NCBI GenBank assembly: GCA_022428005.1
Contig: JAKMDI010000021.1
Coordinates: forward strand, 1 to 58,386
Origin: Flavobacteriaceae bacterium
GTDB taxonomy: Bacteria; Bacteroidota; Bacteroidia; Flavobacteriales; Flavobacteriaceae
Direction: 5' to 3'
Length of the DNA: 58,386 nucleotides
Under the pieces are notes generated by a model. The model made no database searches and had not been told where the DNA came from. It worked only from the letters and a program-made list of their open reading frames with translations. Shown here in pieces: positions 1 through 51,642 of this stretch. The first letter of the stretch is position 1. Each line of letters starts with the position of its first letter. The position numbers and the translations under genes are program-made.

Positions 1-83
1 AAAAACTTTGAGATTTTCATCCTAATCTTCTCATATTTAATAATTTGATAGTAATTTATTAGTGAGTCTTATGAAAGAAGAGG

Positions 84-195
84 TTGGGTTATATATAATA
101 TCAAGAGCCCTAACCTTCACAGAAAAACCATTCTACAAAACCCACCCCACCGTCAGGTAATCAGATAGCAAGGAATCTTTTTAGGGTTTTCAAAA
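84..195. repeat. Direct repeat copy A (~112 bp), left border of the oxidoreductase/rhamnosidase cassette
   Basis: This stretch recurs almost unchanged at 5262-5371 in the same orientation. The longest identical blocks are about 30 and 45 bases, separated by a few substitutions and 1-2 base indels. It lies 70 bases upstream of the first cassette gene and has no credible coding frame. It may be a recombination footprint, an interspersed genomic repeat, or a duplicated control/leader region. The rest of 1-266 is AT-rich with nothing recognisable. Confidence 0.85.
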
Positions 196-266
196 GTATG
201 GAAGTGTTTTCATGACTTAACTATAATAATTATATTGTTAATTTAAAATTAGATTTATGAGAATCA

Positions 267-1634
267 ATGAATAGATCAAATAAAATTAAAAGAAGAGATT
301 GGCTTAAATCAATAGGAGCATTTACTGCTGTGGCAGGCCTTCCCAATGCGCTCCATGCTGAAAGTCTGGTAAAACCCTACCAAGTGAAAGAGAGTTTTTC
401 AGAAACAGACATCTTGATCGTTGGAGGCGGAACTGCAGGAACCATTGCGGCCATTCAGGCTGGACGAACTGGTGCTAAGACGACCTTGATCGAAAGTGGA
501 AGTCAGTTGGGAGGAACTACTACAACTGGAGGAGTATCTTTTCCAGGAATTTTTCACGCTTGGGGCAAGCAAATCATTGGTGGAATCGGGTGGGAGTTAG
601 TTTTGGATGCCGTTGAACTCAATGGAGACCAATTACCCGACTTTACAAAAACTCCCAAATCACACTGGAAGCATCAGGTAGCGGTCAACCCAGCAATTTA
701 TGTAATGTTGGCGGAAGAAAAATGTCTCGAGGCAGGTGTGGACATCCGTTATTACGAAACCCCCACATCAGCCAGGTTTGAAAATGGTAAATGGCTGGTT
801 GAGAGTATAGGAAAAGGGGTCAAAACTATTATTTCAGCCAAGCAATTGATCGATTGTACGGGAAATGCCTTGGTCGCTTCTATGGCAGGATATAAAGTAC
901 TTAGAGAAAAAGAAACCCAGCCAGGTTCACTGGTTTACAGTATGGGAGGTTACGATCTTGATCAATTGGATATGTCCAAAATTCCCAAGCGATACCATAA
1001 GGCTCTACACCAAAATATGTTGACTTCTCAAATCAGAAAAACAGGTGAAAACACATTTGTCCCTTATGGATATGTTTATGTCTATGGCGCCGACTCTACA
1101 ACATCGGAGACTCATACCACGGCCAACCAGAAGGGGCGTCAGAATCTGCTGCAGTTGGTCAGGGAATTGCGGGAGTTACCTGGTTGTGAAAACATCAGGA
1201 TAACCTCTATGAAAACAGAAACAGCGGTAAGAGAAACCTTTAGGGTTGACGGTTTGTATAAAATCACAAAAGATGATTATGTATCTGGACGATTGCAAGA
1301 GGACGCTTTATCCTATAGTTTTTACCCAGTTGACCTTCACCGTGATGGCAAATCCATTTATCAAGAATTTCTAAAACCCAATATTGTGGCGACCATCCCC
1401 ATGAGGGCATTGATACCAAAAAACAGTGAAAACTTTCTCGTTGCGGGTCGTTGTTTGAGCAGTGATCGCCTTGCCAACTCAGCACTTCGTGTTCAGGCCT
1501 CTTGTATGGGTATGGGTCAAGCTGCAGCTGTAACTGCTTCATTGTCTATTCAAAAAGGAATGACCCCTGCCAAAATAGCTCCCAATTTGGTCAAAAAAAG
1601 ACTTAAAGAATACGGGGCAATTGTTCCCAGTTGA
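267..1634 (+). CDS. Tat-exported FAD-dependent oxidoreductase (FAD_oxidored-like)
   Basis: A 455-residue flavoprotein. The N-terminus carries a twin-arginine signal: KRRDWLK at residues 8-14, then a short hydrophobic stretch ending near LHA at 29-31. It is therefore probably folded with FAD in the cytoplasm and exported. The dinucleotide-binding motif VGGGTAG lies at 52-58, followed by a Gly/Thr-rich stretch (QLGGTTTTGGVS) typical of the FAD_oxidored family. A C-terminal FAD-binding region (FLVAGRCLSSDRLA) is also present. The substrate cannot be read. It is the first gene of a three-gene unit with a flavinylated-type lipoprotein and a GH78-like enzyme, so a sugar-linked oxidation or reduction is inferred. 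Family assignment is firm, reaction unknown. Confidence 0.85.
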   Translation: MNRSNKIKRRDWLKSIGAFTAVAGLPNALHAESLVKPYQVKESFSETDILIVGGGTAGTIAAIQAGRTGAKTTLIESGSQLGGTTTTGGVSFPGIFHAWGKQIIGGIGWELVLDAVELNGDQLPDFTKTPKSHWKHQVAVNPAIYVMLAEEKCLEAGVDIRYYETPTSARFENGKWLVESIGKGVKTIISAKQLIDCTGNALVASMAGYKVLREKETQPGSLVYSMGGYDLDQLDMSKIPKRYHKALHQNMLTSQIRKTGENTFVPYGYVYVYGADSTTSETHTTANQKGRQNLLQLVRELRELPGCENIRITSMKTETAVRETFRVDGLYKITKDDYVSGRLQEDALSYSFYPVDLHRDGKSIYQEFLKPNIVATIPMRALIPKNSENFLVAGRCLSSDRLANSALRVQASCMGMGQAAAVTASLSIQKGMTPAKIAPNLVKKRLKEYGAIVPS

Positions 1635-1657
1635 TTTTGTGATGTAAATGATATTTG

Positions 1658-2731
1658 ATGTTTTCTGTTTCTAAATATGTCTTATTGCTTTGTTTTTTAG
1701 CCTTAGTCTCCTGTTATCTGCTAAAGCCCAAAATCAAGTATTATGCAAAAAACAGTGATGGGTGGTCGGTTCAATTGAATAATAAACACTTTACTTCATT
1801 TGGTGACAGTCTTTTTTTACGAGAAACTTCCGATGGAATACCCGAAAGCTTTTACCAACATTTTAGTACGGGAGTTTGTTTTGACAATCAATGTCGTCCG
1901 CTGGATATAATTTTGTATTGGAGTATTAGCGGAAGGTATTTGGGTTTTGAAATGCCAAGGGGGGAGTTTTTGAGTAAAACAGATCATGATCCCTTTAGCC
2001 GAAAAGAATACCTTCAACTGAACCAAATTCTCTCCGATGCCAACCTTCCTTTCAAGGACATCAAGTACCACGAACTAATGAATCAACCAGAAAGCTCCAC
2101 TGAATCTGTAGATGCAATATCCGGGGCAACTTCCGAGCGGATCAAAGACATTGTGGTAAAAAATGCCGCCTATACGACTTTCAAACTATGGAAATTGGTT
2201 TATGGTGAGAGTCAAAAATTCATTGAACAGTACATCGAAAAACACCTCAATACATCAAATTTAATGACCATTCTCAACAGTCAGGATCGATACGACATTT
2301 TCTGGGGACTAACGCACATGAAGGACACCCTTTCTTTTTCCATACCCTTGAAAAACCGATTGCTATCACTGATTCAAAGTGATGATTACTATCTGTCATA
2401 CAATGCTGCTCACGCCATTCCAAATATCTATTTGAGTGACAGTGATTTTTTGGAAAGCCTTTTTTCAACTTATCTCAACTCTTCCGATGCAAGTACCAAA
2501 AATGCAATGTTCAGAAAGCTGAGAGCCGCACCACGGTTGAGTGAAAATCTAATTGTTAAATCTAGAGAATGTTTACCTACAATGGCTCCCCAAGAGATAA
2601 GTAGTATTTTAAAGCTTTATGAAAAACACCACGTAAAAGATAGTATTTCTTTAGAGGCGGTGAGCTCATTGATAAAACACCCTAATCCTTATGTAGTAAA
2701 TCTTGTTAAAAGCTTTTTGATGAAGCTATGA
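1658..2731 (+). CDS. Lipoprotein with covalent-FMN (flavinylation) motif and HEAT-like C-terminus
   Basis: Start chosen at the ATG at 1658; an upstream TTG at 1655 is also possible. The lipobox LALVSC puts the lipidated Cys at about residue 19, so the mature protein is membrane anchored. Residues 152-158 read DAISGAT, which fits the D-x-x-(S/T)-G-A-(S/T) motif that ApbE uses to attach FMN to Thr in NqrC/RnfG-type FMN-binding domains. After about residue 190 the chain becomes helical repeats resembling HEAT units (for example LSYNAAHAIPNI and HPNPYVVNLVKSFL). The gene sits 23 bases after the Tat oxidoreductase. The likely role is electron carrier to or from that enzyme, which is inference. The FMN-plus-HEAT combination is not one I recognise as named. 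Confidence 0.7.
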   Translation: MFSVSKYVLLLCFLALVSCYLLKPKIKYYAKNSDGWSVQLNNKHFTSFGDSLFLRETSDGIPESFYQHFSTGVCFDNQCRPLDIILYWSISGRYLGFEMPRGEFLSKTDHDPFSRKEYLQLNQILSDANLPFKDIKYHELMNQPESSTESVDAISGATSERIKDIVVKNAAYTTFKLWKLVYGESQKFIEQYIEKHLNTSNLMTILNSQDRYDIFWGLTHMKDTLSFSIPLKNRLLSLIQSDDYYLSYNAAHAIPNIYLSDSDFLESLFSTYLNSSDASTKNAMFRKLRAAPRLSENLIVKSRECLPTMAPQEISSILKLYEKHHVKDSISLEAVSSLIKHPNPYVVNLVKSFLMKL

Positions 2732-2799
2732 CCCCAAAGTGATAAAACGGTTATATGATCAACTGAAGCAAAGTAATTTAGACATATTTAAAATTAAAA

Positions 2800-5082
2800 A
2801 TGAGAATAATAATATTAACAATTGTCTACTTGATAGGCTTTAATACATTTTCACAAAATAAAACTTGGAAAGGTCAGTGGATAACCTCCTTTGAACAACA
2901 AAACGAAACCAACAATTGGACGGCCTATCAAAAATCATTTCAGTTAAATGATGTTCCCAATGAGGCTTTGGCAAAAATAGCCTGCGACTCCAAATACTGG
3001 ATGTGGATTAATGGAGAAATGGCTGTTTTTGAAGGACAGCTCAAAAGAGGTCCTTCGCCCGATGATACTTACTATGATGAGGTGGATATTGCCCCTTTTT
3101 TAAAGCAAGGAAAAAACTTTATTTCAATCTTGGTTTGGTATTTTGGTAAAGATGGTTTTTCTCATAATAGTAGCGGTAAAGCTGCATTGATTTTTGACTG
3201 TCAAACGCAGGGGTTCGATTTGCTTTCGGACCTGACTTGGAAGGCTTCTATCCGAAGAGAATTTGGTACTGCTGGACTTCCTTTGCCCAACTTCAGATTA
3301 CCCGAGTCAAGTATTCGTTACGATGCCCGTTTAGGAAATTTTGATTTTATTTCATCAAACAACTTAAAATGGGGACGAACTCGTTCTTTAGGAACTCCTC
3401 CGATTTTACCTTGGAACAATCTTGTAAAACGCCCATTGCCATTATGGAGAGATTATGGGATGAAGAATTATACAAATCAAATGAAATTCCCGTTTGTTAG
3501 CAACGGAGATACAATTGTTTGTCATTTACCATATAACGCTCAAATCACTCCGTATTTTAAAATTGAAGCGAAAGAGGGTGAGGAAATAAAAATCCTTACC
3601 GATCATTACCAAGGAGGCGGACCATATAATATTCGCGCAGAATACATTACACGAGAGGGCATACAGGAGTACGAAAACCTTGGCTGGATGAATGGACAGA
3701 AAGTCTATTATATCATTCCTAAAGGAGTTAGAGTATTAGATATAAAATATAGGGAAACAGGATATAATACTGAATTTACAGGGAGTTTTAATTGTAATGA
3801 TGATTTCTACAACCGCTTGTGGTCAAAAGCTCTGCGAACACTTTATGTGACCATGCGCGATACCTATATGGACTGCCCTGACCGTGAAAGAGCTCAATGG
3901 TGGGGAGATGCGGTTAACGAAAGCGGAGAAACATTCTATGCAATGTGCCCCAAAAGTAGATTTTTAACACAAAAGGCTATTCTTGAGCTAATGAATTGGC
4001 AACGTGCTGACGGTACCATATTCTCTCCTATTCCAGCAGGGAACTGGGATAGAGAGTTGCCCGGACAGATGCTGGCCAGCATAGGCTATTACGGTTTTTG
4101 GAATTATTATATGAACACTGGAGACAAAGAGACCATGGTTAAAGTATATAAAGGAGTAAAACGTTATCTGGATATTTGGCAATTGGACGATAACGGTTTG
4201 TTAGTTAAAAGAATGAACGAATCAGATCATAAAGGTTGGTACTGGGGTGATTGGGGTACCAATATCGACAAGGATCTATTGATGAATGAATGGTATTACC
4301 TGGCCTTAAAAGGTTATAAAGAGATGTCGTTAATCCTAGATAAATCTGGCCAAGCTGATTGGGCTGATAATACAATGACCCATTTAAAGGCTGCATTTAA
4401 TCGAACATTTTGGAAGGGGGATCAATACCGTTCTTATAGCTACAATGATGATACAGATGACCGTGGGCAAGCACTGGCTGTTGTTGCTGGACTTGCCGAT
4501 TATGACAAATACGAAGCTATTTTTAAACTGTTGCAGAAACAGAGATATAGCAGCCCTTACATGGAAAAGTATGTGATAGAGGCATTGTTCATCATGGGGC
4601 AACCTGAATATGGTTTACAACGCCTTAAAGAACGCTTTCAGCCCATGGTCGATAATAAAGATTACTCCACTTTGTTTGAAGGCTGGGGAGTGGGCAGAAA
4701 TGGTTATGGAGGTGGCTCTACCAACCATGCTTGGAGTGGAGGTGGTTTAACAATACTTTCGCAATATGTATGTGGATTATATCCGCTTGAACCGGCATGG
4801 AAAAGTTTTATGGTCAAACCTAATTTAGGTGGTTTGGAATATGCCGAAACTGAAAATGAGACAATTGCCGGCAAAGTAAAAGTAAAAGTCTCCAAAACAA
4901 AATCAGGTATGGAAATGGATCTAACGGTGCCTCTAGGTAGTGAAGCGGTTGTTTATATTCCAGAAAAAGAAAAGAAGGTAACAGTTAATGGTAAAAAGTT
5001 AAGTCCAAAGGAAGTAAAGGATGGCCACCAATTATTCAGATTGAAGGGAGGTCAGCATATTTTAGTTGCTTTACACAAATAA
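2800..5082 (+). CDS. GH78-like alpha-L-rhamnosidase, exported
   Basis: A 760-residue enzyme with a Sec signal peptide (residues about 1-19). N-terminal beta-sandwich domains precede an (alpha/alpha)6-barrel typical of family GH78, which cleaves terminal alpha-L-rhamnose from glycans or glycosides. The hallmark DCPDRERAQWWGDA is at 358-371, with acidic and aromatic barrel residues WYWGDWG at 480-486 and TLFEGW at 624-629. A C-terminal beta domain follows NHAWSGG. It is 68 bases after the FMN-type lipoprotein gene and on the same strand, so co-transcription is plausible. Rhamnosidase is the best call, though relatives acting on other deoxy-sugars cannot be excluded. Confidence 0.8.
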   Translation: MRIIILTIVYLIGFNTFSQNKTWKGQWITSFEQQNETNNWTAYQKSFQLNDVPNEALAKIACDSKYWMWINGEMAVFEGQLKRGPSPDDTYYDEVDIAPFLKQGKNFISILVWYFGKDGFSHNSSGKAALIFDCQTQGFDLLSDLTWKASIRREFGTAGLPLPNFRLPESSIRYDARLGNFDFISSNNLKWGRTRSLGTPPILPWNNLVKRPLPLWRDYGMKNYTNQMKFPFVSNGDTIVCHLPYNAQITPYFKIEAKEGEEIKILTDHYQGGGPYNIRAEYITREGIQEYENLGWMNGQKVYYIIPKGVRVLDIKYRETGYNTEFTGSFNCNDDFYNRLWSKALRTLYVTMRDTYMDCPDRERAQWWGDAVNESGETFYAMCPKSRFLTQKAILELMNWQRADGTIFSPIPAGNWDRELPGQMLASIGYYGFWNYYMNTGDKETMVKVYKGVKRYLDIWQLDDNGLLVKRMNESDHKGWYWGDWGTNIDKDLLMNEWYYLALKGYKEMSLILDKSGQADWADNTMTHLKAAFNRTFWKGDQYRSYSYNDDTDDRGQALAVVAGLADYDKYEAIFKLLQKQRYSSPYMEKYVIEALFIMGQPEYGLQRLKERFQPMVDNKDYSTLFEGWGVGRNGYGGGSTNHAWSGGGLTILSQYVCGLYPLEPAWKSFMVKPNLGGLEYAETENETIAGKVKVKVSKTKSGMEMDLTVPLGSEAVVYIPEKEKKVTVNGKKLSPKEVKDGHQLFRLKGGQHILVALHK

Positions 5083-5261
5083 ATTGACAGATTGGTTTTG
5101 TAAATCATTACAGTTTGTAAACTTATCAGTAGTGATTAATTACCCCCCTAAAACCACAATCAAAAAAACAGTCTTAATCCCCTATCAATTTGGTTATTGT
5201 AAGGGAATGCTTTTGTGTGCAATTGTGTAAAAATTGAATCGTGTTATTATATAGTTAGGGT

Positions 5262-5371
5262 TTGGGTTATATATAATATCAAGAGCCCTAACCTCCAAAG
5301 AAAAACCATTCTACAAAACCCACCCCACCGTCAGGTAATCAGATAGGCAGGAAAGTTTTTAGGGCTCAAAA
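5262..5371. repeat. Direct repeat copy B (~110 bp), right border of the cassette
   Basis: Second copy of the repeat at 84-195, in the same orientation, 85 bases beyond the 3' end of tmRNA. Here the left edge also forms an inverted pair, GTTAGGG with CCCTAAC, that could fold as a hairpin. It occupies part of the gene-free stretch 5083-5455; the remainder of that stretch is AT-rich and shows no other recognisable element. No transposase or integrase lies between the two copies. Confidence 0.85.
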
Positions 5372-5455
5372 TATTGTAGCCGTACAAATACCGTACAATA
5401 AAAAAATAAAAAATCCCTAAAACATTGATTTAAAACGTAATAGGAATTTTATAAG

Positions 5456-5851
5456 TGGAGTCGGCGGGAATCGAACCCGCGTCCAAACAAGTCATAACAA
5501 AACTTTCTACAAGCTTAGTTTTCGTTTAATTTTCGAGGAATCAGTGACCGAAAACTGCCCAAGATTCCCTTATTGTCTTTATTGAAAAACACAACCGACA
5601 CTTTTGCATTTCGATGTTGACATTTATGGTGCCTAAAAACCGATCGCCGTCAACAAGGGCTATCGAAAGACATCCGGCTTCCCGGCCTGGCCGGGACTTG
5701 GCAAAGACTTACTATAATTCAGTCAATTATGCAGCTAGAGCGTAGTTATTCTCGCCATTTAAATGGTGAAACATAAGATTTACGAGCTGTGTTTCAGCGC
5801 TCGACTTGCTTACTCCGCTATGGAATCCTGCTGTCAAAACCAGTCGACCCC
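5456..5851 (-). ncRNA. ssrA: tmRNA (transfer-messenger RNA)
   Basis: Read on the minus strand, the RNA begins GGGGTCGACTGGTTTTGACAG and ends in a T-arm and acceptor strand (GTTCGAT loop region, then CGACTCC and discriminator A). The first seven bases pair with the last seven, with one G-T pair. No CCA is encoded. The resume codon is GGC at 5756. The tag reads GENNYALAA followed by TAA at 5727-5729, of the type expected in Flavobacteria. It rescues stalled ribosomes and marks the nascent peptide for proteolysis. The 3' end faces the repeat-bounded cassette. Ends were placed by pairing and could be off by a base or two. Confidence 0.95.
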
Positions 5852-5883
5852 AAATTTTCAATGAGCTGTCCTTCAGGACATCG

Positions 5884-5891
5884 CAAAGGTA
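5884..5891 (-). promoter_or_regulatory. Putative tmRNA promoter, -7 element
   Basis: On the minus strand this reads TACCTTTG, matching the Bacteroidota -7 consensus TANNTTTG, about 32 bases before the mature tmRNA 5' end. No clear TTG is found 20 bases upstream. The leader between it and the RNA contains the near-palindrome TGTCCTTCAGGACA (5867-5880), which may be a processing hairpin. Confidence 0.5.
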
Positions 5892-5941
5892 CAAATTTCG
5901 CGCCGTAATTTATCGGACTGGAGCCGTATTGCTTCTAAAAC

Positions 5942-6640
5942 TTATTTAAAATTAAAAATCATTCGGGCTGTAACCGTTCTTCCCAATTGGGGCATACCCG
6001 GTAATGCCCTGAATTTATTGTCAAATAAATTAACCGCTGAGAGATGAAACTTAAAATGTTCATCAAAGTTGTAACCTATTATCACATCGAATAAGGATTT
6101 GGCGTCTATCCTTCCTGGAAATGTACTTTGATTGGATTTATAAGCTTGATTCCACTGATAGGATACACTGCTGACAAACCCGAGCTCAGGTTGTAAACTA
6201 ATCCCACATCTTATTTTGTTTTGAGGGAAATTTAAATCCCCTGGTTCTCCAGAAGAGCGACTGAACCAGGTATAGTTAAAATAAGAGGTCAATTCATCTG
6301 AAAAGTAGTATTTTGAGTGGGTTTCAAACCCCCAATTGGTGCTTGTTTTGTCTGGGTCACGGGTGATATAGCCATAGATGAGCTTGGGCAGATTCCCATC
6401 AGGAGCCTCTTGGGTGGGGATCACTCCATGAAAGGGCAGCCCTGCGTCTGACAACTGATCCAAGAAAATTTGCCCCGCCGCGTTGTAGGCTCCGTTTAGT
6501 GTCCCTCCAATCTGGGCGGCTATCGCTGCTGCAGCTGCTGCAGGTTGGCCCAAATTGATCAATGCCTGTTCTATCTGTGGTTGAAAGGTGGATTGAACGC
6601 CACTGCCCAACTGATTGGGTAAATCCTGAACATTTACCAC
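5942..6640 (-). pseudogene. TonB-dependent receptor, C-terminal fragment
   Basis: About 230 residues of the outer-membrane barrel end of a TonB-dependent receptor. It has an alanine-rich extracellular-loop-like region, then alternating beta-strand patterns (YYFSDELTSYFNYTW, FKFHLSAVNLFDNKF) and the closing FNFK-stop typical of barrels inserted by the BAM complex. The family is normally 800-1000 residues with a signal peptide and plug; both are absent. The frame stays open for some codons beyond 6640 but then loses similarity, where a SusD fragment starts on the other strand. Loss of the 5' part by rearrangement is inferred. No usable start or promoter is seen, so expression is unlikely. Confidence 0.8.
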
Positions 6641-6649
6641 TGGGCTTAC

Positions 6650-7567
6650 TTGCGAAAAGCCAGCACCTGCAGTTCTCCCGAAGCAATCTTTACGGAACGA
6701 TACGATGCTGCCTCTACCCTTGGAACCAGCCTCTCAGTAACTGCTGTTCATGCTGATTTTGCTTTTGCTTGGAATTCAAATTTTCGACCTTATTTGGACA
6801 TAGTTGAAAAATTTGAATTTATTGATGGATCGTCTGGAGCAATCCCTCGAGAGCAATATGCTGCTAAAGAGTGGACCATGGAGGAACTGTTCCACAACAG
6901 AGATCCGCGTTTTAAAGCTGCGATTCTGTATAATGAGTCAGAATTTTGGGGGAAAAAAGCATATTTCCATGAAAAGAGTATCGTAGACGGAGCTGAGGTA
7001 AAAAATGGGGTGTTGCCCGATGGTACACCTGCCAAAGCATCTGCCCGAGCATACGAACCCCGTCCCAAACCCTTAAGACAAGGTTTTCTGTTGAGAAAGT
7101 TTTTGGATGAAAGCTCAGGGAACCAGCTTGAGGGAGGACAATCTAGTGAGGATTATCATATTTTTAGATTGGGAGAGACCTATCTAAACCTTGCTGAGGC
7201 TGCTTTCTATCTCGAAAAAACTGATGAAGCTCTTGCCGCTCTAAATGAAATAAGGAAGCGTGCTGGCATGCCCGCATTAGACACCATTGACGAGGATGCC
7301 ATAAGAAATGAAAGAGCGGTAGAGCTGGTGTTCGAGGAGCATAGATTTTGGGACCTTAGGCGTTGGAGAATTGCAGAAGAAGTGCTGAATAATACCATGC
7401 ATAAAGGACTTTCTTTTGTTTACAATCACGATACCAAGAAATATCAAATTTCAGTTAAAGATGCCATCAGAAGCCCTCGGATATTTTTATCTCATCACTA
7501 CTATTACCCATTGACATTGAACAAACTCTCTGATAATCCAAACTTGGTGGAGAATCCTGGGTATTAG
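6650..7567 (+). pseudogene. SusD/RagB-like glycan-binding lipoprotein, C-terminal fragment
   Basis: About 300 residues that match the second half of SusD-family nutrient-binding lipoproteins. Visible marks are the FEFIDGSSG segment, NRDPRFKAAILYN, the region FRLGETYLNLAEAAF, LNEIRKRAGMPAL, and the block NERAVELVFEEHRFWDLRRW, ending in LVENPGY. Full-length SusD proteins have about 500 residues with a lipoprotein signal and N-terminal TPR helices; these are missing. Recognisable homology begins around 6670. The fragment abuts a TonB-receptor tail on the opposite strand, whereas intact SusC and SusD genes are tandem. It is taken as a remnant of a polysaccharide utilisation locus. Confidence 0.8.
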
Positions 7568-7568
7568 T

Positions 7569-7602
7569 AAGATAAGAGGAACACAATTCAACTTATCTTT
7601 TT
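7569..7602 (+). terminator. Intrinsic terminator after the SusD remnant
   Basis: AAGATAAG pairs with CTTATCTT across a 15-base loop and is followed by a short T tract. It starts directly after the SusD fragment stop codon. Confidence 0.5.
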
Positions 7603-7620
7603 ATGGGTCATGAATAATTA

Positions 7621-7656
7621 AATAGGTTTGGGGGGGTGGCTCCGCCCAAACTTATT
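7621..7656. terminator. Strong hairpin between the SusD remnant and kdsA
   Basis: AATAGGTTTGGG pairs with CCCAAACTTATT over 12 base pairs (one G-T) around a G/C-rich loop. On the plus strand it runs into TTGTTTT. It could terminate transcription from either side, the SusD remnant or kdsA. Confidence 0.45.
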
Positions 7657-7682
7657 GTTTTAATACGGATGGGGAATTTTAT

Positions 7683-7707
7683 CCTATCACTCCAGGGCGG
7701 TGATAGG
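7683..7707. other. Perfect 8-bp inverted repeat just beyond kdsA
   Basis: CCTATCAC and GTGATAGG flank a 9-base spacer, three bases past the kdsA stop codon. No T tract follows on the minus strand, so it is either a weak terminator or an mRNA 3'-end stabilising hairpin. Confidence 0.4.
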
Positions 7708-7710
7708 CAA

Positions 7711-8535
7711 CTACTTTAGCTTTTCGTTGACAAAAGTTTTTAATTGCGCCATTCTAATCAAAAGACCTTCTAAATGTTGTATGTCCAGCATATTAGCACC
7801 ATCACTTTTAGCATTGGAGGGATCAAAATGGGTTTCGAGAAATAATCCATGTACACCAGAAACGATTCCGGCGCGGGCAAGGGTTTCAATATGTTCAGGC
7901 CGACCCCGAGTAACACCGCCGCTTTGGTTGGGTTGTTGTAGCGAATGGGTTATGTCCAAAACAGTAGGGGCGAATTTGTTCATCACTGGGATGCCCCTAA
8001 AATCCACGATTAAATCTTGGTAACCAAACTGGGTACCTCTGTCGGTGAGCCAAATATTTTGATTGCCGCTGTCTTTAACTTTCTGCACTGCAAACTCCAT
8101 GCTTTCTGGACTCATAAACTGCCCTTTCTTGAGGTTGACAAATTTTTTTGTCTGGGCCGCAGCAACAATTAATGCTGTTTGTCTGACCAGAAACGCAGGA
8201 ATTTGAAGTACATCGACATAGGCCGCTGCCATGGGTGCGTCCTCTGAATTGTGGATGTCCGTAACTGTTGGTATCTCAAATGTTGACCCAACTTTTTCTA
8301 ATATTTTTAACGCTTTTTCATCGCCAATACCGGTAAAACTGTCCAGCCGATTACGGTTGGCTTTTTTAAAACTTCCCTTAAAAATATAGGGAATGGAAAG
8401 TTGATCGGTAATGTTTTTTACCCGCTCTGCAATTCTCATTGCCATTTCCTCTCCCTCGATGGCACAAGGTCCTGCCATCAAAAAAAACTGACCGCTTTGA
8501 AGATGACTGATTTTTGGAAGTTCATTTAAAGGCAT
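7711..8535 (-). CDS. kdsA: 3-deoxy-8-phosphooctulonate (Kdo-8-P) synthase
   Basis: Condenses phosphoenolpyruvate with arabinose-5-phosphate to give Kdo-8-phosphate, the first committed step to the Kdo of lipopolysaccharide; cytosolic. The 274 residues cover the whole family length. Visible marks are AGPCAIE (21-27), FKGSFKKANR, LTDRGTQFGY and DITHSLQQPN. Cys24 occupies the position that is Asn in the E. coli enzyme, which points to the metal-dependent class. The gene follows ftsE by 47 bases on the same strand. Confidence 0.95.
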   Translation of the reverse strand: MPLNELPKISHLQSGQFFLMAGPCAIEGEEMAMRIAERVKNITDQLSIPYIFKGSFKKANRNRLDSFTGIGDEKALKILEKVGSTFEIPTVTDIHNSEDAPMAAAYVDVLQIPAFLVRQTALIVAAAQTKKFVNLKKGQFMSPESMEFAVQKVKDSGNQNIWLTDRGTQFGYQDLIVDFRGIPVMNKFAPTVLDITHSLQQPNQSGGVTRGRPEHIETLARAGIVSGVHGLFLETHFDPSNAKSDGANMLDIQHLEGLLIRMAQLKTFVNEKLK

Positions 8536-8582
8536 AAAGCTAATTTAGGTTATGATTGGTATTATATGGAATGAAGATAAAA

Positions 8583-9263
8583 TTATGTTTTGGCAACGAC
8601 TTCAAATACTTTTCCTTCCTCACACTTAAAGATTTTCCCCGGAAACTTAACGATCATTTGATAATCGTGGGTGGCCATCAAAACCGTCATTCCTTTTTGG
8701 TGCAGGGATTTAAAGAGTTGCATGATCTCCTGACTTGTTTGTGGATCGAGGTTTCCCGTGGGTTCATCGGCAATAATTATTTTAGGATCGTTGAGCAAAG
8801 AACGCGCGATGGCAATTCTTTGCTGTTCTCCACCCGACAGTTCAAATGGAAATTTTTTAAAGTTGACGCTGATACCCACCATTTCCATTACCCGATTAAT
8901 TTTTTCGTCAATTTTCTTTTTGTCCCGCCAACCAGTTGCTTTTAAAACAAATTTTAAATTGTCGCCAATATTTCGATCTGGAAGAAGTTTAAAGTCCTGA
9001 AAAACAACACCCAACGTTCTTCTTAGTTTGGGAATGTCTTTTGATTTTAATCGTGTTAAATCAAAATCTCCAACACTGCCTATACCTCCAGCAAGGGCCA
9101 AATCGCCATAGATGGTTCTGATCAAACTACTTTTACCGCTTCCAGTCCTCCCAATTAAAAAAATAAAACTCCCTTGGGGAACATCCAAAGAGACATCCGA
9201 CAAAATGACTTTTCCTCTTTGCTTAATAGTGGCATCGCTAAATGAAACAATATTCTGTGTCAT
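8583..9263 (-). CDS. ftsE: Cell-division ABC ATPase FtsE
   Basis: A 226-residue ABC ATPase. The Walker A motif GRTGSGKSS is at 38-46, followed by a Q-loop ([13 protein letters not shown]) and the signature [16 protein letters not shown]. Walker B reads [12 protein letters not shown], and an H-loop (ATHDYQM) is present. The short length, lack of fused domains and PDRN segment fit FtsE, which with FtsX controls peptidoglycan hydrolases at the septum. No ftsX is adjacent, so another small ABC ATPase (LolD-like) is a weaker alternative. The gene is divergent from the TPR gene at 9386 and upstream of kdsA. Confidence 0.85.
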
Positions 9264-9385
9264 AGGAGGGTGAATTATTCATCAAATGTAAATGGTTTTA
9301 ATTGGGTATTAAAATTTGTTGATAAATTATACTCAAGCGACAATAAATACGTTCCTATAAGAAAGGTTTCTGATTAATTTTGAAT

Positions 9386-12300
9386 ATGTGTTTTACAAAG
9401 AAAAATAGCTTGTTTTGTTTAGGGTTGTTTTTTTTTACTGCACCCGCTTGGACACAAATTACGGACAATTCCAGTTTAAAAATAAATGCCACTGATTTAT
9501 ATTATCAAGGCGATTACGCCAATGTTGATCAAGCATTTGCCCTCTACCAGGATTTTGATGTGAGTAAAAAGGCTCAGGAGGAAATCAACTACTTTAGGAT
9601 GTCAACCGCCTTGAGACTCAATGATCCTGGAGCTGTAAAATTGATCGAATCATACGGTGTTGATTATCCCAACACCCCCATTATAAAAACAGTATATTTA
9701 GACCTGGCCAATTTTTATTTTAACAATGAACAATACGCCTATGCTCTTAAATGGTTTTCCAGGGTAAAAGCATCAGATGTTCCCAGGCCCGAGCTTCCTA
9801 AATTTTATTTTAATAAAGGTTATACACTTTTTTCCAAAAAACAATATTCCAAGGCCAAGCCACTTTTTGAAAAAGTAAAGTTTAATCCTCAATACGAGTC
9901 TGACGCGCATTATTATTTAGGTCATATTGCCTATCAGTTGGAGGATTATAACGCTGCTTCAAACTCTTTTACCAAGGTGACCCGGCAAGATCAAAAGGAA
10001 ACCTTGGGATACTTTCAAGTTGAAATGAATTTTAAGTTAGGTCGATTTGAAAAAGCTATTGAATTGGGTAAAAAAGAGATCCTAAATACTCAGGGAGAGG
10101 ATTTTTCTGAATTATCAAAAATTATAGGAGAAAGTTTTTTTAACACCCAACAGTATGCTCAGGCCTTGAAGTACCTCCTAAATTATAAGGGAAAAAAGGG
10201 CAAATGGACCCATACAGATTTCTACCAGTTGGGTTATGCTTATTATGAAACGGGGGATTTCAGTCGGGCCATTGAAGAGTTCAGTAAAATTATAGGTAAA
10301 AAAGATAAACTGGCCCAAAACGCATATTACTATTTGGCAGAATGTTACCTAAAAAAAGACCGAAAGACTTCTGCCCTTAACGCCTACAGAAGTGCTGCCT
10401 CCATGACCTTTAATCCTGACATCACACAAATTTCCATGCTCAATTATGCCAAGCTGGGTTACGAAATAGGCAATCCTTATGAAAATGTACCCAATGTTAT
10501 CATTCGCTATCTGGAGTCATATCCCAAGTCAAATAACGAAGATGAGCTCACCCAATTGCTTTTGAGTTCCTACACCAACAGTGGTGATTATGATAGCGTA
10601 ATTGATATTCTTACTTCGCAAAATGACTATAAGGACGACCGGCTTCTTCAGCGGGTGACTTTCCTAAAAGCATCACAATTATTCAGTGCGGGGAATTATT
10701 TAGAGGCCAAATCCCTGTTTCAAAAGGCGGTCAAAAACGACAAGGTAAACAACATCAGTGCGCAATCTCTTTTCTGGTTGGCACAATCCAATTACGAGCT
10801 CAATCGTTTTGAAGAGGCCCTTGAAGCCTATTATGAATTTGAAAAAAAGACCTTAAAGAGAGGCATGATCCATGCATTAGAATTTTATTACCACCAGGGA
10901 TACACGCATTTTAAAATGGGTAATTATGAACTGGCCTTGGTGGCTTTCAAAAAAATGATGGATCATCAAGAGCAATACCCGAGAAGTAAAATTCGAGATG
11001 GCTACTTGCGAATGGGGGATTCCGAATTCGCTCTGAGTCAATTTTGGCCAGCTATGGAATACTATAATAGCAGTATCGTGATGTCACCGGGTCAGTCCGA
11101 CTATGCGCTATTTCAAAAATCCATAAGCTATGGCTTTGTCGACCGTAACAATCAAAAAATCAATTCCCTACAAGAATTGATTCAAAAGTATCCACAGTCG
11201 CCCTTTGTAGACGACGCCTTCTTTGAGCTGAGCAGTGCCTATGCTGTTGCAAATTCTAATGATACAGCCATAAATACCTATGACAAACTGATTGAAAGGT
11301 ATCCCAAAAGCCCCTACGTTCCTAAAGCCATTCTCAACAAAGGTCTGATTCTATACAATCAAGAAAAACTGAATCTCGCCGAAGACGTTTTAAAAGGACT
11401 GGTGATGCGATTTACCAAAGATGCAGTAGCACAGCAGGCATTGGGGACACTGAAAGAAATCGCAGTTGATATGGATGAGGTTCCGCAATTCACCCAGTGG
11501 CTAAAAAGGAGGAACATCGATGTTTTTTCTGAAAGTGAATTGGAAAAGACAGCATTCACAGCAGCAGAAAAGCAGTTTTTAAGCAATAGAAAAAAGCAAG
11601 CCAAGAAATCCTTTACTTCTTTTTTGACGGCTTATCCTGAGGGTGTCAATGCCCTCAATGCTCATTTTGTTTTGGCGGAAATTTATTTTGAAGAATCTGA
11701 TATGATCACAGCACTGGAGCATTATCAAAAGTTAATCGATGAAAAACCCAACGAATATTTTGAGCAGGCATTGGTCAGGGCTACGCAAATTTTGGTACAG
11801 CAAGATCAGCAAGCTTCAGCAGTCCCTTACTGGAAGGAGTTAGAGAATGTCGCCGTTTTCCCAGAAAACAAAAGATATGCACTCTTTAATCTCATGCGAT
11901 GGCACTACCGATCTAAGGCTTATGAAAGCGCGCAGCAAAAAGCAGAAGAGGTTATTGAATTGGAAAACTTAGAGGTGAAAGTCAAATGGGATGCCTACGA
12001 AATTTTAGCCCAGTCTGCAATGGAGCTGGGAGATACCATCAAAGCCGAAAAAGCCTTTATGATCCTTGAGTCTGCTCCCATTGACGCTTTGGCAGCAGAG
12101 GCTCACTATTTTAGGGCCCAACAGAATCACAACAACAAAGAATACGAGCAGTCCAATGAGGTCATCGCCCTACTTTCCCAAAAATTCAGTAGCCAACCTT
12201 TTTGGGCGGCAAAAAGTCTTTTATTGATGGCTAAAAATTTTAACGCCCTCAATGATGCCTTCCAAGCGACCTATATATTGGAATCTTTGATCACCAATTA

Positions 12301-49345: not shown

Positions 49346-50524
49346 ATGTACAAATACCTTTATGTAGTAGCTTTGATTTATGTACATGAAATGTCTTTTG
49401 CTCAGCGGGTAACAGACAGTCTCAAATCGTCAATGAATCAGAACTCAGTACAAATCAATGGATATCAAAGAATATTACAAAACTTAGAAGCCGTTCCTAA
49501 CGGGATGACCTTTGGGGGGTATGCAGAGGTGCTGTACAACCAACCAAAGGGCGCTAATGGTGATATTGATGTACAACGACTGATTTTACTTTTTGGTTAT
49601 AAGTTTGATGACAGGACCCAGTTTGTAACAGAAGTAGAATACGAACACGTCAAAGAAGTGTACGTGGAGCAGGCTTTTGTAAATTACTCGATTTCCAACT
49701 CCTTGAACGTTCGCGCGGGTTTGATGCTGGTCCCGATGGGCATTATAAACGAATATCATGAACCCACGACATTTAATGGGGTGGAGCGGCCATCACTTGA
49801 TGAACAATTGGTGCCAACCACATGGAGAGAAATTGGAATCGGTTTGTCGGGGCGGTCAGATGGTTTGTCGCTGCGCTATCAGGCCTACCTTTTTAACGGT
49901 TTTCTCTCTCACAACGGAGCAGATGGGTTAATAAAAGGAATGAATGGATTTAGATCGGGCAGACAAAAAGGAGCGCAATCGGTATTCAGAACACCAAATC
50001 TGTCCATGAAATTAGACTTTTATGGCATTAATGGTCTTCGGTTAGGGCTCTCTGGATATTTTGGAAAAACACAAGCCGCAGATGAGGTTTTCGACACCCC
50101 AGGAAGTCGGGTAGGTTTGTCAATGATTGGTTTGGATGCACGCTACAGTTTCCGGAAATTTACTGCGAGGGGGCAATTCATAACCAGTTCTATTAGCGAT
50201 GCTCAAGAATACAACCAATTAACCAACAAGGATCTCGGTGATTCCATGTTGGGGTATTACTTAGAGGGAGCCTACAATATTTTACCCATTACGAATCGAC
50301 AGCGAATATTTGTATTCGTCAGATATGAAGATTTTGATACCCATGCTTCAGTTCCCAGCTTCACCCCTAAAAATTTAAATTTTCACAGAAAAGAAATCAC
50401 CACTGGGTTTTCTTATCACCTCGCACCCGGGGTTGTTTTTAAAATGGATTATCAGCGGAAATCCACTGTTGGCGGAGATTTAGACGTCAATCAGTTCAAT
50501 GCTGGGGTAGGAGTATGGTTTTAA
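49346..50524 (+). CDS. Outer-membrane porin (OprP-like)
   Basis: 392 residues: a signal peptide (YLYVVALIYVHEMSFAQ) and a 14-16 strand porin pattern with FGGYAEVLYN, LNVRAGLMLVPMGIINEYHEP, ERPSLDEQLVPTTWREIGIGL and a terminal VGVWF. This is the phosphate-selective porin O/P-like family common in Bacteroidota. An FMN-binding protein and a membrane protein gene follow downstream. Substrate unknown. The 176 bases upstream are AT-rich with no clear promoter. Confidence 0.78.
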   Translation: MYKYLYVVALIYVHEMSFAQRVTDSLKSSMNQNSVQINGYQRILQNLEAVPNGMTFGGYAEVLYNQPKGANGDIDVQRLILLFGYKFDDRTQFVTEVEYEHVKEVYVEQAFVNYSISNSLNVRAGLMLVPMGIINEYHEPTTFNGVERPSLDEQLVPTTWREIGIGLSGRSDGLSLRYQAYLFNGFLSHNGADGLIKGMNGFRSGRQKGAQSVFRTPNLSMKLDFYGINGLRLGLSGYFGKTQAADEVFDTPGSRVGLSMIGLDARYSFRKFTARGQFITSSISDAQEYNQLTNKDLGDSMLGYYLEGAYNILPITNRQRIFVFVRYEDFDTHASVPSFTPKNLNFHRKEITTGFSYHLAPGVVFKMDYQRKSTVGGDLDVNQFNAGVGVWF

Positions 50525-50605: not shown

Positions 50606-51145
50606 ATGATGTCTTACATAGCCCGTTTTTCTTTAGTAGCAATCTGTTTTTTCAGCCTTTCCTTGGACTTTGATATGACTAAATTGCTCAAAAAGCGCGT
50701 TCACAAGGAAGTTTCCAGAGTATTTATGTGTTCAGATTTTAAATTAAATGAAGTCACGGGCACCCCCGGTTTTCAATTAGAAAACAGCACTTTTTTGACA
50801 CGACATCAGATCTACAAAATCGACAGGGAGGGAACCCTCCTCGGATATGCTTTTATAGGTACAGCACCCAGCAAAACAGATTCTTTCGAATACTTGATCC
50901 TCTTTGACCAAAACTTTATCCACAAAAAGGCGAAAGTCCTGGTATACAGAGAAGATTATGGAGGTGAAATCTCCAGCAAACGTTGGTTGTCTCAGTTTCA
51001 AGAGACCACATTGGATGAACGTTTTACCTATGGAGATAATATCAGTGCCATATCAGGAGCCACCATTTCTGTCAAATCGATGACCAATTCCATCAACTAT
51101 GTCTACGCACAGCTACAACCCAAAAAGGTGGCGGCCAGTCATTAG
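50606..51145 (+). CDS. Exported FMN-binding domain protein
   Basis: 179 residues with an N-terminal signal anchor (IARFSLVAICFFSLSL) and an FMN-binding domain. GTLLGYAFIGTA, FEYLILFDQNF and SAISGATISVKSM (147-159) are recognisable. S-G-A-T is the ApbE-type flavinylation site, with FMN expected on Thr153; the usual leading Asp is Ser here. Start may be either of two adjacent ATGs. It lies 2 bases before the four-helix membrane protein gene, so a shared electron-transfer role is likely. Confidence 0.82.
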   Translation: MMSYIARFSLVAICFFSLSLDFDMTKLLKKRVHKEVSRVFMCSDFKLNEVTGTPGFQLENSTFLTRHQIYKIDREGTLLGYAFIGTAPSKTDSFEYLILFDQNFIHKKAKVLVYREDYGGEISSKRWLSQFQETTLDERFTYGDNISAISGATISVKSMTNSINYVYAQLQPKKVAASH

Positions 51146-51147
51146 AA

Positions 51148-51642
51148 ATGTCCAATCAATTTTTGATAAAAAATTTATCTGTACCCATTAAGTATTTTAT
51201 TGGGGCCTTCCTCATACTCCTATCTATAGGTTATTTTACAGGCTTAGCTTTTGTAGCCCAGACCGATTCTACAACTCCACAAGGCATCGAGGAAAATTAT
51301 AATGGGAATGAAGACGAAGATGCGCCGAAGGTTCTTAAATTCAAGAAAAGCAGCAGAGAAATGTTGACCATCATTCACACGCATGTGTTGTCCATTTCGA
51401 TGATATTTTTCATGACTGGAATTTTATTGTGGTGTACAGAGCAGCGTGTTCTAATAAAAAAAATACTAAGTATAGAACCCTTTGTCTCTGTATTGGTGAC
51501 TTTTGGAGGGATTTACTTGGTTTGGTTAGGATACAGTTTCTTTTCGATCCTCATCGTAATTTCCGGAATCCTGATGACACTTTCCTATGTCTTGGCTATC
51601 CTGTTCATATTTAACGATTTATTAAAAAAACCAAGTCCGTAG
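51148..51642 (+). CDS. Four-helix membrane protein paired with the FMN protein
   Basis: 164 residues: TM1 at about 13-36, an acidic extracytoplasmic loop (QGIEENYNGNEDEDAP), TM2 at about 74-95, TM3 at about 108-128 and TM4 at about 131-157. TM2 begins IIHTHVLS, with His77 and His79 well placed for heme or quinone contact. No named family recognised. Directly adjacent to the flavin protein, it could be its membrane electron donor; this is inference. Confidence 0.7.
   Translation: MSNQFLIKNLSVPIKYFIGAFLILLSIGYFTGLAFVAQTDSTTPQGIEENYNGNEDEDAPKVLKFKKSSREMLTIIHTHVLSISMIFFMTGILLWCTEQRVLIKKILSIEPFVSVLVTFGGIYLVWLGYSFFSILIVISGILMTLSYVLAILFIFNDLLKKPSP

Follow-up and report, generated by a model that had tools for sequence, protein, structure and literature searches.

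Bacterial FMN_bind carriers (PF04205; NqrC, RnfG, NosR, and others), which bear flavin mononucleotide (FMN), have an export-type N-terminus and a D-x-x-[ST]-G-A-T motif between a β region and a helix, come from genomes that encode ApbE, and are expected to carry electrons. The flavinylation motif is defined in PMC12052999 as D-x-x-[S/T]-G-A-[S/T], with FMN on the last residue. These features recur in a predicted flavinylated lipoprotein of a Flavobacteriaceae bacterium (assembly GCA_022428005.1), whose gene lies in a stretch of 58,386 nucleotides designated here as the window (contig JAKMDI010000021.1, which makes up all of contig C2 in a draft genome of 1.72 Mb). The contig starts at base 1 of the window, near a trio of forward-strand genes that code for a flavin adenine dinucleotide (FAD)-dependent oxidoreductase (267–1634), the lipoprotein (1658–2731), and an α-L-rhamnosidase-type protein of glycoside hydrolase family 78 (GH78; 2800–5082). 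Unlike FMN_bind carriers, the lipoprotein shows no PF04205 match and possesses a CX4C pair, K-x-x-H residues, and a C-terminal HEAT-like solenoid, and its partner is not a respiratory complex but a PF12831 enzyme encoded in glycan loci.

Other described systems share single traits with this locus. Flavinylated fumarate and urocanate reductases, which combine a PF00890-type FAD enzyme with an FMN domain, likewise have an FAD enzyme with a covalent FMN carrier outside the cytoplasm, an arrangement that is predicted here; they differ in that our partner enzyme belongs to PF12831, the carrier has a gene of its own, and the setting is glycan degradation. Classes of ApbE substrates that were recognized from their genomic context include DUF2271 and DUF3570 (PMC8238504) as well as Flavodoxin_4 and FMN_red (PMC11334425); in common with our lipoprotein, these are unannotated or unexpected families that bear the motif. 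The 3-oxidation of glycosides in the periplasm by enzymes of the GMC or Gfo/Idh type (for related work, see PMC10646112) shares an oxidative step in glycoside use and differs in enzyme family and electron acceptor. Searches of the main texts of open-licence PMC papers, without supplements, showed no paper on the FAD–lipoprotein pair among the matches listed, and PF12831 occurred in one paper, on Brucella flavoproteins. As far as these searches reach, the elements are of known kinds, and the pair and the carrier family are undescribed. We propose that the pair is a two-component, sugar-oxidizing redox module that acts outside the cytoplasm and is used by Bacteroidota glycan-utilization loci, a reading that we consider about as probable as all others combined.

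A conserved gene pair and its predicted flavinylation

Relatives of the lipoprotein were fetched with a peptide pattern that lies outside the DAISGAT motif, and the best 80 of 91 were counted. Together with the window and five further relatives, they make up 86 loci, 11 more having been dropped as duplicates. Neighboring genes (FAD gene, SusC, GH78, etc.) were labeled at E 1e-4 by means of profiles derived from the first loci. The window and the 25 top-ranked loci (L043–L067), 26 in all, are designated as the closest group, which is defined by rank and not by a tree. In 79 of the 86 loci, the FAD gene immediately adjoins the lipoprotein gene in the same orientation, upstream of it in 73 and downstream in 6, with a median gap of −4; 43 of these 79 loci have overlapping frames for the two genes, the overlap being exactly 4 bases in 35. 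Within the closest group, 24 of the 26 loci have an adjacent FAD gene, with products of 438–479 aa. The identity matrices of the two proteins correlate with r = 0.85 over 78 pairs, a value that includes shared species history and was equaled in none of 1000 permutations. In the window, the three genes are tightly spaced, as the sequence-only reading of this DNA had stated, the intervals between them measuring about 20 and 68 bases.

The carriers of the pair are mostly Bacteroidota, from Flavobacteriaceae through Spirosoma, Cyclobacterium, Olivibacter, and Sunxiuqinia, and a lipoprotein homolog is present in 15 of the 100 relative genomes searched (source genome included). Contigs labeled Thalassobius (L071) and Thalassovita (L115, with SusC/SusD) also carry the cluster, which suggests misbinned Bacteroidota DNA.

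The FAD protein (455 aa) matches PF12831 over the entire profile (positions 1–416 of 416; E 2.6e-79; 267.9 bits, cut-off 27), and the two stretches by which it had been recognized from the DNA, the Rossmann-type loop VGGGTAG and the twin-arginine stretch KRRDWLK (288–308, forward strand; residues 8–14), are both present in the protein. An RR within the first 30 residues was found in 22 of the 24 FAD proteins of the closest loci versus 4 of the 55 others, and 6 of 8 long-form FAD proteins (alignment A2) start with a stretch that is Sec-like as judged by eye. The route of export differs between loci, and export of the FAD protein as such seems to be kept. Judged from its N-terminal residues, a twin-arginine translocation (Tat) signal on the window protein is plausible. 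TatC, however, was not found in the source draft (82% complete), one of two TatC-negative genomes among the 22 genomes of the genus searched, whereas the other 20 have it.

The lipoprotein gene was called from TTG at 1655; ATG at 1658 is the better start and yields a protein of 357 aa with a β domain and a HEAT-like helical domain. The protein has an LVSC lipobox, which provides the export signal expected of an ApbE substrate, and the motif DAISGAT (2111–2131, forward strand; residues 152–158), which fits the definition of the flavinylation motif, so that its earlier description as a lipoprotein with such a motif holds. A pattern search indicated that the lipobox is typical of the nearest relatives of the window and of three non-Bacteroidota loci; most other members have an N-terminal stretch that is signal-like as judged by eye, with no match to the lipobox pattern. 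All 83 members that were aligned have T158; D152 is found in 81, S or T at position 155 in 78, G156 in 68, and the A of the motif in 80. Because the pattern that fetched most members excluded the motif, the invariance of T158 is more than chance. C74 and C79 of the CX4C pair (1877–1894, forward strand; alignment A3) are conserved in 82 and 83 of the 83 members, respectively, and K-x-x-H residues outside the flavinylation site are conserved as well.

The predicted structure of the lipoprotein is good (mean predicted local distance difference test (pLDDT) score 92, predicted template modeling score 0.85) and shows β strands, helices, the motif loop, and a long helical solenoid in this order. A Foldseek search against the PDB placed designed armadillo and other HEAT-type repeats on top (best E 1.8e-3), which agrees with the HEAT-like character ascribed to the protein at first sight; no match reached E ≤1e-3, and the 50 best were dominated by the helical domain. 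Neither Pfam nor NCBIfam matched the protein, apart from a Cnd1 hit below threshold (E 0.09). The order of elements in the modeled motif domain seems compatible with the FMN_bind fold, and this domain may be distantly related to FMN_bind or represent an independent solution.

ApbE was found in 48 of 48 carrier genomes searched versus 65 of 98 in a sample of the phylum that left out the source genome and was unmatched as to genome size and lineage (Fisher 3e-7). For this comparison, 49 of the 80 loci, mostly on longer contigs, had been chosen before the result was known, and 48 were searched. The source genome itself encodes ApbE (G000:C23, 466–1311), on a contig shared with genes that look nqr-like by eye. 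In two loci, apbE is part of the cluster, lying between two FAD–lipoprotein pairs (L090) or beside the carrier gene (L097). Taken together, the adjacency of the genes, the invariance of T158, and the co-occurrence of ApbE give strong support to the redox pair that had been proposed from the sequence.

The same observations bear on another explanation, in which the lipoprotein is not flavinylated and instead scaffolds the FAD enzyme or aids its maturation, the DxxSGAT loop being structural. This would accord with the lack of a PF04205 match, with the large HEAT-like domain, and with the CX4C and K-x-x-H residues, which lie outside the flavinylation site and are as conserved as the motif. However, the conserved positions include just those residues of the ApbE motif (S/T at 155 and T158), apbE adjoins the carrier in two loci, and all carrier genomes searched encode ApbE; we regard an unflavinylated lipoprotein as improbable.

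Several observations on flavinylation touch neighboring subjects. In the Lentisphaerales locus L097 (4446–8165), apbE lies directly upstream of the carrier gene with no adjacent PF12831 gene, and genes that appear DUF1501-like and cytochrome-type by eye adjoin the carrier gene. Several Bacteroidota genomes (e.g., G119, G123, and G155) encode ApbE and show no PF04205 match at the thresholds used; the lipoprotein family could be among the missing ApbE substrates of these genomes. The window also encodes a second likely flavinylated protein (50606–51145, forward strand; 179 aa) with AISGAT and a PF04205 match of 24.8 bits (cut-off 22), flanked by a porin-like gene (49346–50524) and a gene for a small membrane-type protein (51148–51642), both named by eye.

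Glycan loci and the direction of electron flow

The pair is found mainly among genes for glycan use. SusC, SusD, a sulfatase, or GH78 occurs within six genes of it in 71 of the 86 loci; by family, SusD was found within this distance in 42 loci, sulfatase in 40, SusC in 36, CstA in 15, and GH78 in 9. We also scanned 183 same-strand, previously unlabeled neighbors of the best 80 loci with Pfam, and among the 25 top families per scan were FecR (14), SSF sodium-solute symporters (12), GH2 (9), ApbE (2), GH43 (at least 11), GH127 (at least 6), and GH31 (at least 4). The genes for SusC, SusD, the FAD protein, and the lipoprotein are consecutive in several loci, including those of Runella, Spirosoma, Cyclobacterium, and Algoriphagus. 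The window has no intact susC–susD pair in the cluster, only a SusC-like TonB-barrel fragment and a SusD fragment past the ssrA gene.

Two loci give a more specific picture. In L105 (3664–10927), the stretch directly 5′ of the pair encodes, according to Pfam, an enolase-type cycloisomerase, an aldehyde dehydrogenase (Aldedh), a 2-keto-3-deoxygalactonate kinase, and an aldolase, with GH127 and sulfatases near the pair and this anhydrogalactose-type catabolic set. L116 resembles L105 in gene size and order, Pfam having been run on L105 only. The 3,6-anhydro-D-galactose catabolic set in the carrageenan locus of Zobellia galactanivorans (dauA-D, GH127), as given in PMC5698469, matches the genes of L105, and both L105 and L116, in which this set stands beside the pair, are probable carrageenan loci. 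The window differs from the Zobellia locus in having GH78 and no dau genes. In another locus (L079, Zobellia russellii), a DUF7133-cytochrome c protein is encoded two genes upstream of the pair. PMC11345257 mentions one FAD-dependent oxidoreductase near a SusC/D pair in Maribacter forsetii; this paper, like PMC5613140 and PMC6262041, settles nothing about our pair. A link to 3-keto-glycosides was considered, as Gfo/Idh-like and DUF1080-like genes (by eye) occur in the neighborhood of some pairs or next to ssrA of relatives, and was rejected: neither Gfo/Idh nor DUF1080 was among the Pfam families listed (25 top per scan) for the neighbors of the pair, and a search of open-licence PMC papers gave nothing useful on this point.

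In the reading that we prefer, the FAD enzyme would be exported, probably via Tat in the closest sub-clade, and would oxidize a periplasmic sugar or oligosaccharide freed from the glycan. ApbE would attach FMN to Thr158 of the lipoprotein, which would accept electrons from the FAD enzyme and pass them on into the membrane respiratory chain; the HEAT-like domain may serve to dock a partner. The redox step would take place outside the cytoplasm. Oxidation is favored as the direction because of the glycan loci, the oxidative catabolic neighbors in some of them, the cytochrome c protein of L079, and the largely aerobic hosts.

The pair might also work in reverse as a respiratory reductase, in which electrons of the quinone pool would reach the FAD enzyme through the lipoprotein and be spent on an unsaturated or keto compound derived from the glycan or its aglycone. 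Fumarate and urocanate reductases linked to ApbE draw electrons from respiratory chains (PMC8238504). Among PDB sequences, the FAD family best matches flavocytochrome c fumarate reductases, over the nucleotide-binding part only (E 2.8e-11), and the model of the FAD protein, of moderate quality (mean pLDDT 75), has SdhA/FrdA-type flavoproteins among the many that it resembles. In addition, the figure legend on carrageenan loci in PMC5698469 lists a fumarate reductase/succinate dehydrogenase (“FR/SR”) gene along with unknowns, and this gene is possibly the FAD protein. On the other side, PF12831 differs from the PF00890 reductases, the FAD protein scoring 27.2 bits with PF00890 versus 267.9 bits with PF12831. 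The aldehyde dehydrogenase, cycloisomerase, and cytochrome c neighbors fit oxidation better than reduction, and the largely aerobic genera of the carriers argue in the same direction. A reductase is the main rival of our reading, and we consider it unlikely.

A number of findings weigh against a flavinylated, sugar-oxidizing pair. Seven of the 86 loci (L039, L055, L063, L084, L097, L109, and L111) have no adjacent FAD gene, one of them (L084) beginning at a contig edge, and the three Lentisphaerales/Verrucomicrobiota loci are all without an FAD neighbor. Four genomes contain two pairs apiece, and among these 8 pairs the closest relatives of the two partner proteins come from one locus in 3, come from apparent sister loci in 2, and disagree in 3. 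As regards flavinylation, PF04205 was matched by none of six members (the window protein and five relatives), and the motif domain of the window alone gave no PF04205 match even at E up to 1. A profile alignment with Bacteroidota FMN_bind proteins was mainly led by the motif and had a probability of 38 with a first set that held some wrong picks and 54 with a cleaned set and a laxer alignment; six unrelated families scored below 1, under the first settings (probability 38) only. A PDB-sequence profile search with the lipoprotein family returned no flavin protein, the matches being short or weak (best “Ika8”, E 6e-5 over 22 residues). The apbE gene was detected in only 2 of the 86 loci, by a profile with three seeds that included L090 and L097. 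ApbE also serves Nqr, and its presence is hence not specific to the lipoprotein carrier; moreover, the phylum sample was unmatched. Finally, the fold matches of the FAD model include flavoproteins of fumarate reductase and succinate dehydrogenase with a low TM-score (about 0.26–0.38); since these matches span many other FAD families, they do not fix the direction of the reaction.

The GH78 gene and the ssrA site

The third gene of the trio (2800–5082, forward strand) codes for a protein of 760 aa that matches PF17389 (102.8 bits, cut-off 24.5) and PF17390 (54.8 bits, over the cut-off), confirming its assignment as a GH78-like glycosidase; N-terminal GH78 accessory domains were not detected in this protein. 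Its residues D358, E363, D370, and E627 align with the catalytic acidic residues of RhaB (2okx). The sequence-only reading had joined this enzyme to the pair as one system, and here the neighborhoods give little backing: by the test that this reading had set itself, whether the three genes are often neighbors elsewhere, the GH78 part is weak. GH78 lies within six genes in 9 of the 86 loci (with the pair intact in 8) and directly beside the pair in 5, the window included. Among 10 orthologs, namely the window protein and nine at 56–74% identity, 3 are near a pair, again counting the window, and 7 have no pair in the stretch examined, two of these seven being at or near a contig end; the comparison covered 10 fetched regions and the pair loci rather than every PF17389 gene of the genus. 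On these counts, we rejected GH78 as a defining partner and treat it as an optional neighbor.

Whether GH78 is a bystander, brought to the pair by shuffling of cargo at the ssrA site and sharing no substrate with it, is in our view evenly balanced. The counts above speak for it, as do the variable genes adjoining ssrA in 14 loci, the repeats that flank the trio, and the PF17389 genes detected in 22 of the 22 genomes of the genus searched, because of which proximity to a pair is not very surprising. In contrast, most loci with a nearby GH78 gene belong to the closest group (8 of 26 versus 1 of 60 others; Fisher 2e-4, uncorrected for phylogeny), and the pair-associated GH78 proteins vary in type (20–74% identity to the window protein) and in position, a pattern that points to repeated association. 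A protein of the RhaT family (L-rhamnose symporter) encoded near one pair also argues against a mere bystander. We read GH78 as local cargo that may or may not supply substrate to the pair, and a rhamnoside link is possible for the closest sub-clade and not in general.

The trio is flanked by two copies of a dispersed intergenic repeat of 108 bases (79–186 and 5257–5364, both on the forward strand; 93% identical), the right copy ending 90 bases from ssrA, the gene for transfer-messenger RNA (tmRNA; 5455–5851, reverse strand). G011 has a similar element equally far from ssrA, and G015 has a shorter one. The repeat is a mosaic family found in 13 of the 22 genus genomes, sometimes serially at a spacing of 1–6 kb; copies occur, for example, at G011:C12 62288–62390 and at G017:C136 39316, 40598, and 41815, and the conserved core reads CCATTCTACAAAACCCACCCCACCGTCAGGTAATCAGATAGG in the right copy of the window. 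We considered an integron attC site, as the copies are serial, and rejected it because the GTT..AAC order of the inverted core (top strand) is the reverse of that in attC; no integrase was sought. A search of window positions 1–12000 with Rfam yielded only the tmRNA at gathering score, and a sub-threshold permuted-tmRNA match over the right repeat (23.6 bits versus 47) was taken as chance.

The genes adjoining ssrA differ among 14 ssrA loci of relatives, some of which have SusC/SusD-type pairs there. Homologs of window genes 7711–8535 (kdsA-like by eye) and 8583–9263 (ftsE-like by eye) each occur in at least 10 of these 14 loci, some of the stretches ending early. Past ssrA, the window contains a C-terminal TonB-barrel fragment (5942–6640, reverse strand; PF00593, 26.4 bits, cut-off 27) and a SusD fragment (6650–7567, forward strand) in head-to-head orientation; the SusD fragment shares 85% identity with a portion of a longer SusD next to ssrA in G021. 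Long SusC-like and SusD genes stand in G021 and G004 where the window has fragments, which suggests decay, rearrangement, or an assembly join at this position. Given the variable site and the flanking repeats, the arrangement of the trio is probably a product of the site.

Place of the pair in glycan use

A broader form of our proposal, which we put forward tentatively and with somewhat less confidence than the module itself, is that the pair constitutes a widespread respiratory module of Bacteroidota glycan loci. The lipoproteins would be a hitherto unrecognized family of ApbE substrates outside PF04205 that takes electrons from a sugar-oxidizing PF12831 enzyme, and a part of the reducing power of the glycan would be respired before uptake. 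Since the DUF2271-type classes were found through co-location with apbE and this gene stands beside so few of our loci, such a search could easily miss the family; the lipoproteins are thus candidates for a flavinylation family likely missed by searches based on PF04205 or on the neighbors of apbE. The carriers include named strains of Zobellia, Cyclobacterium, Spirosoma, and Algoriphagus, in which specific assays are possible. For Zobellia galactanivorans, deletion genetics is described in PMC5698469. Glycan loci are usually viewed in terms of binding, hydrolysis, and uptake, and the conserved pair would make a redox step frequent among them too.

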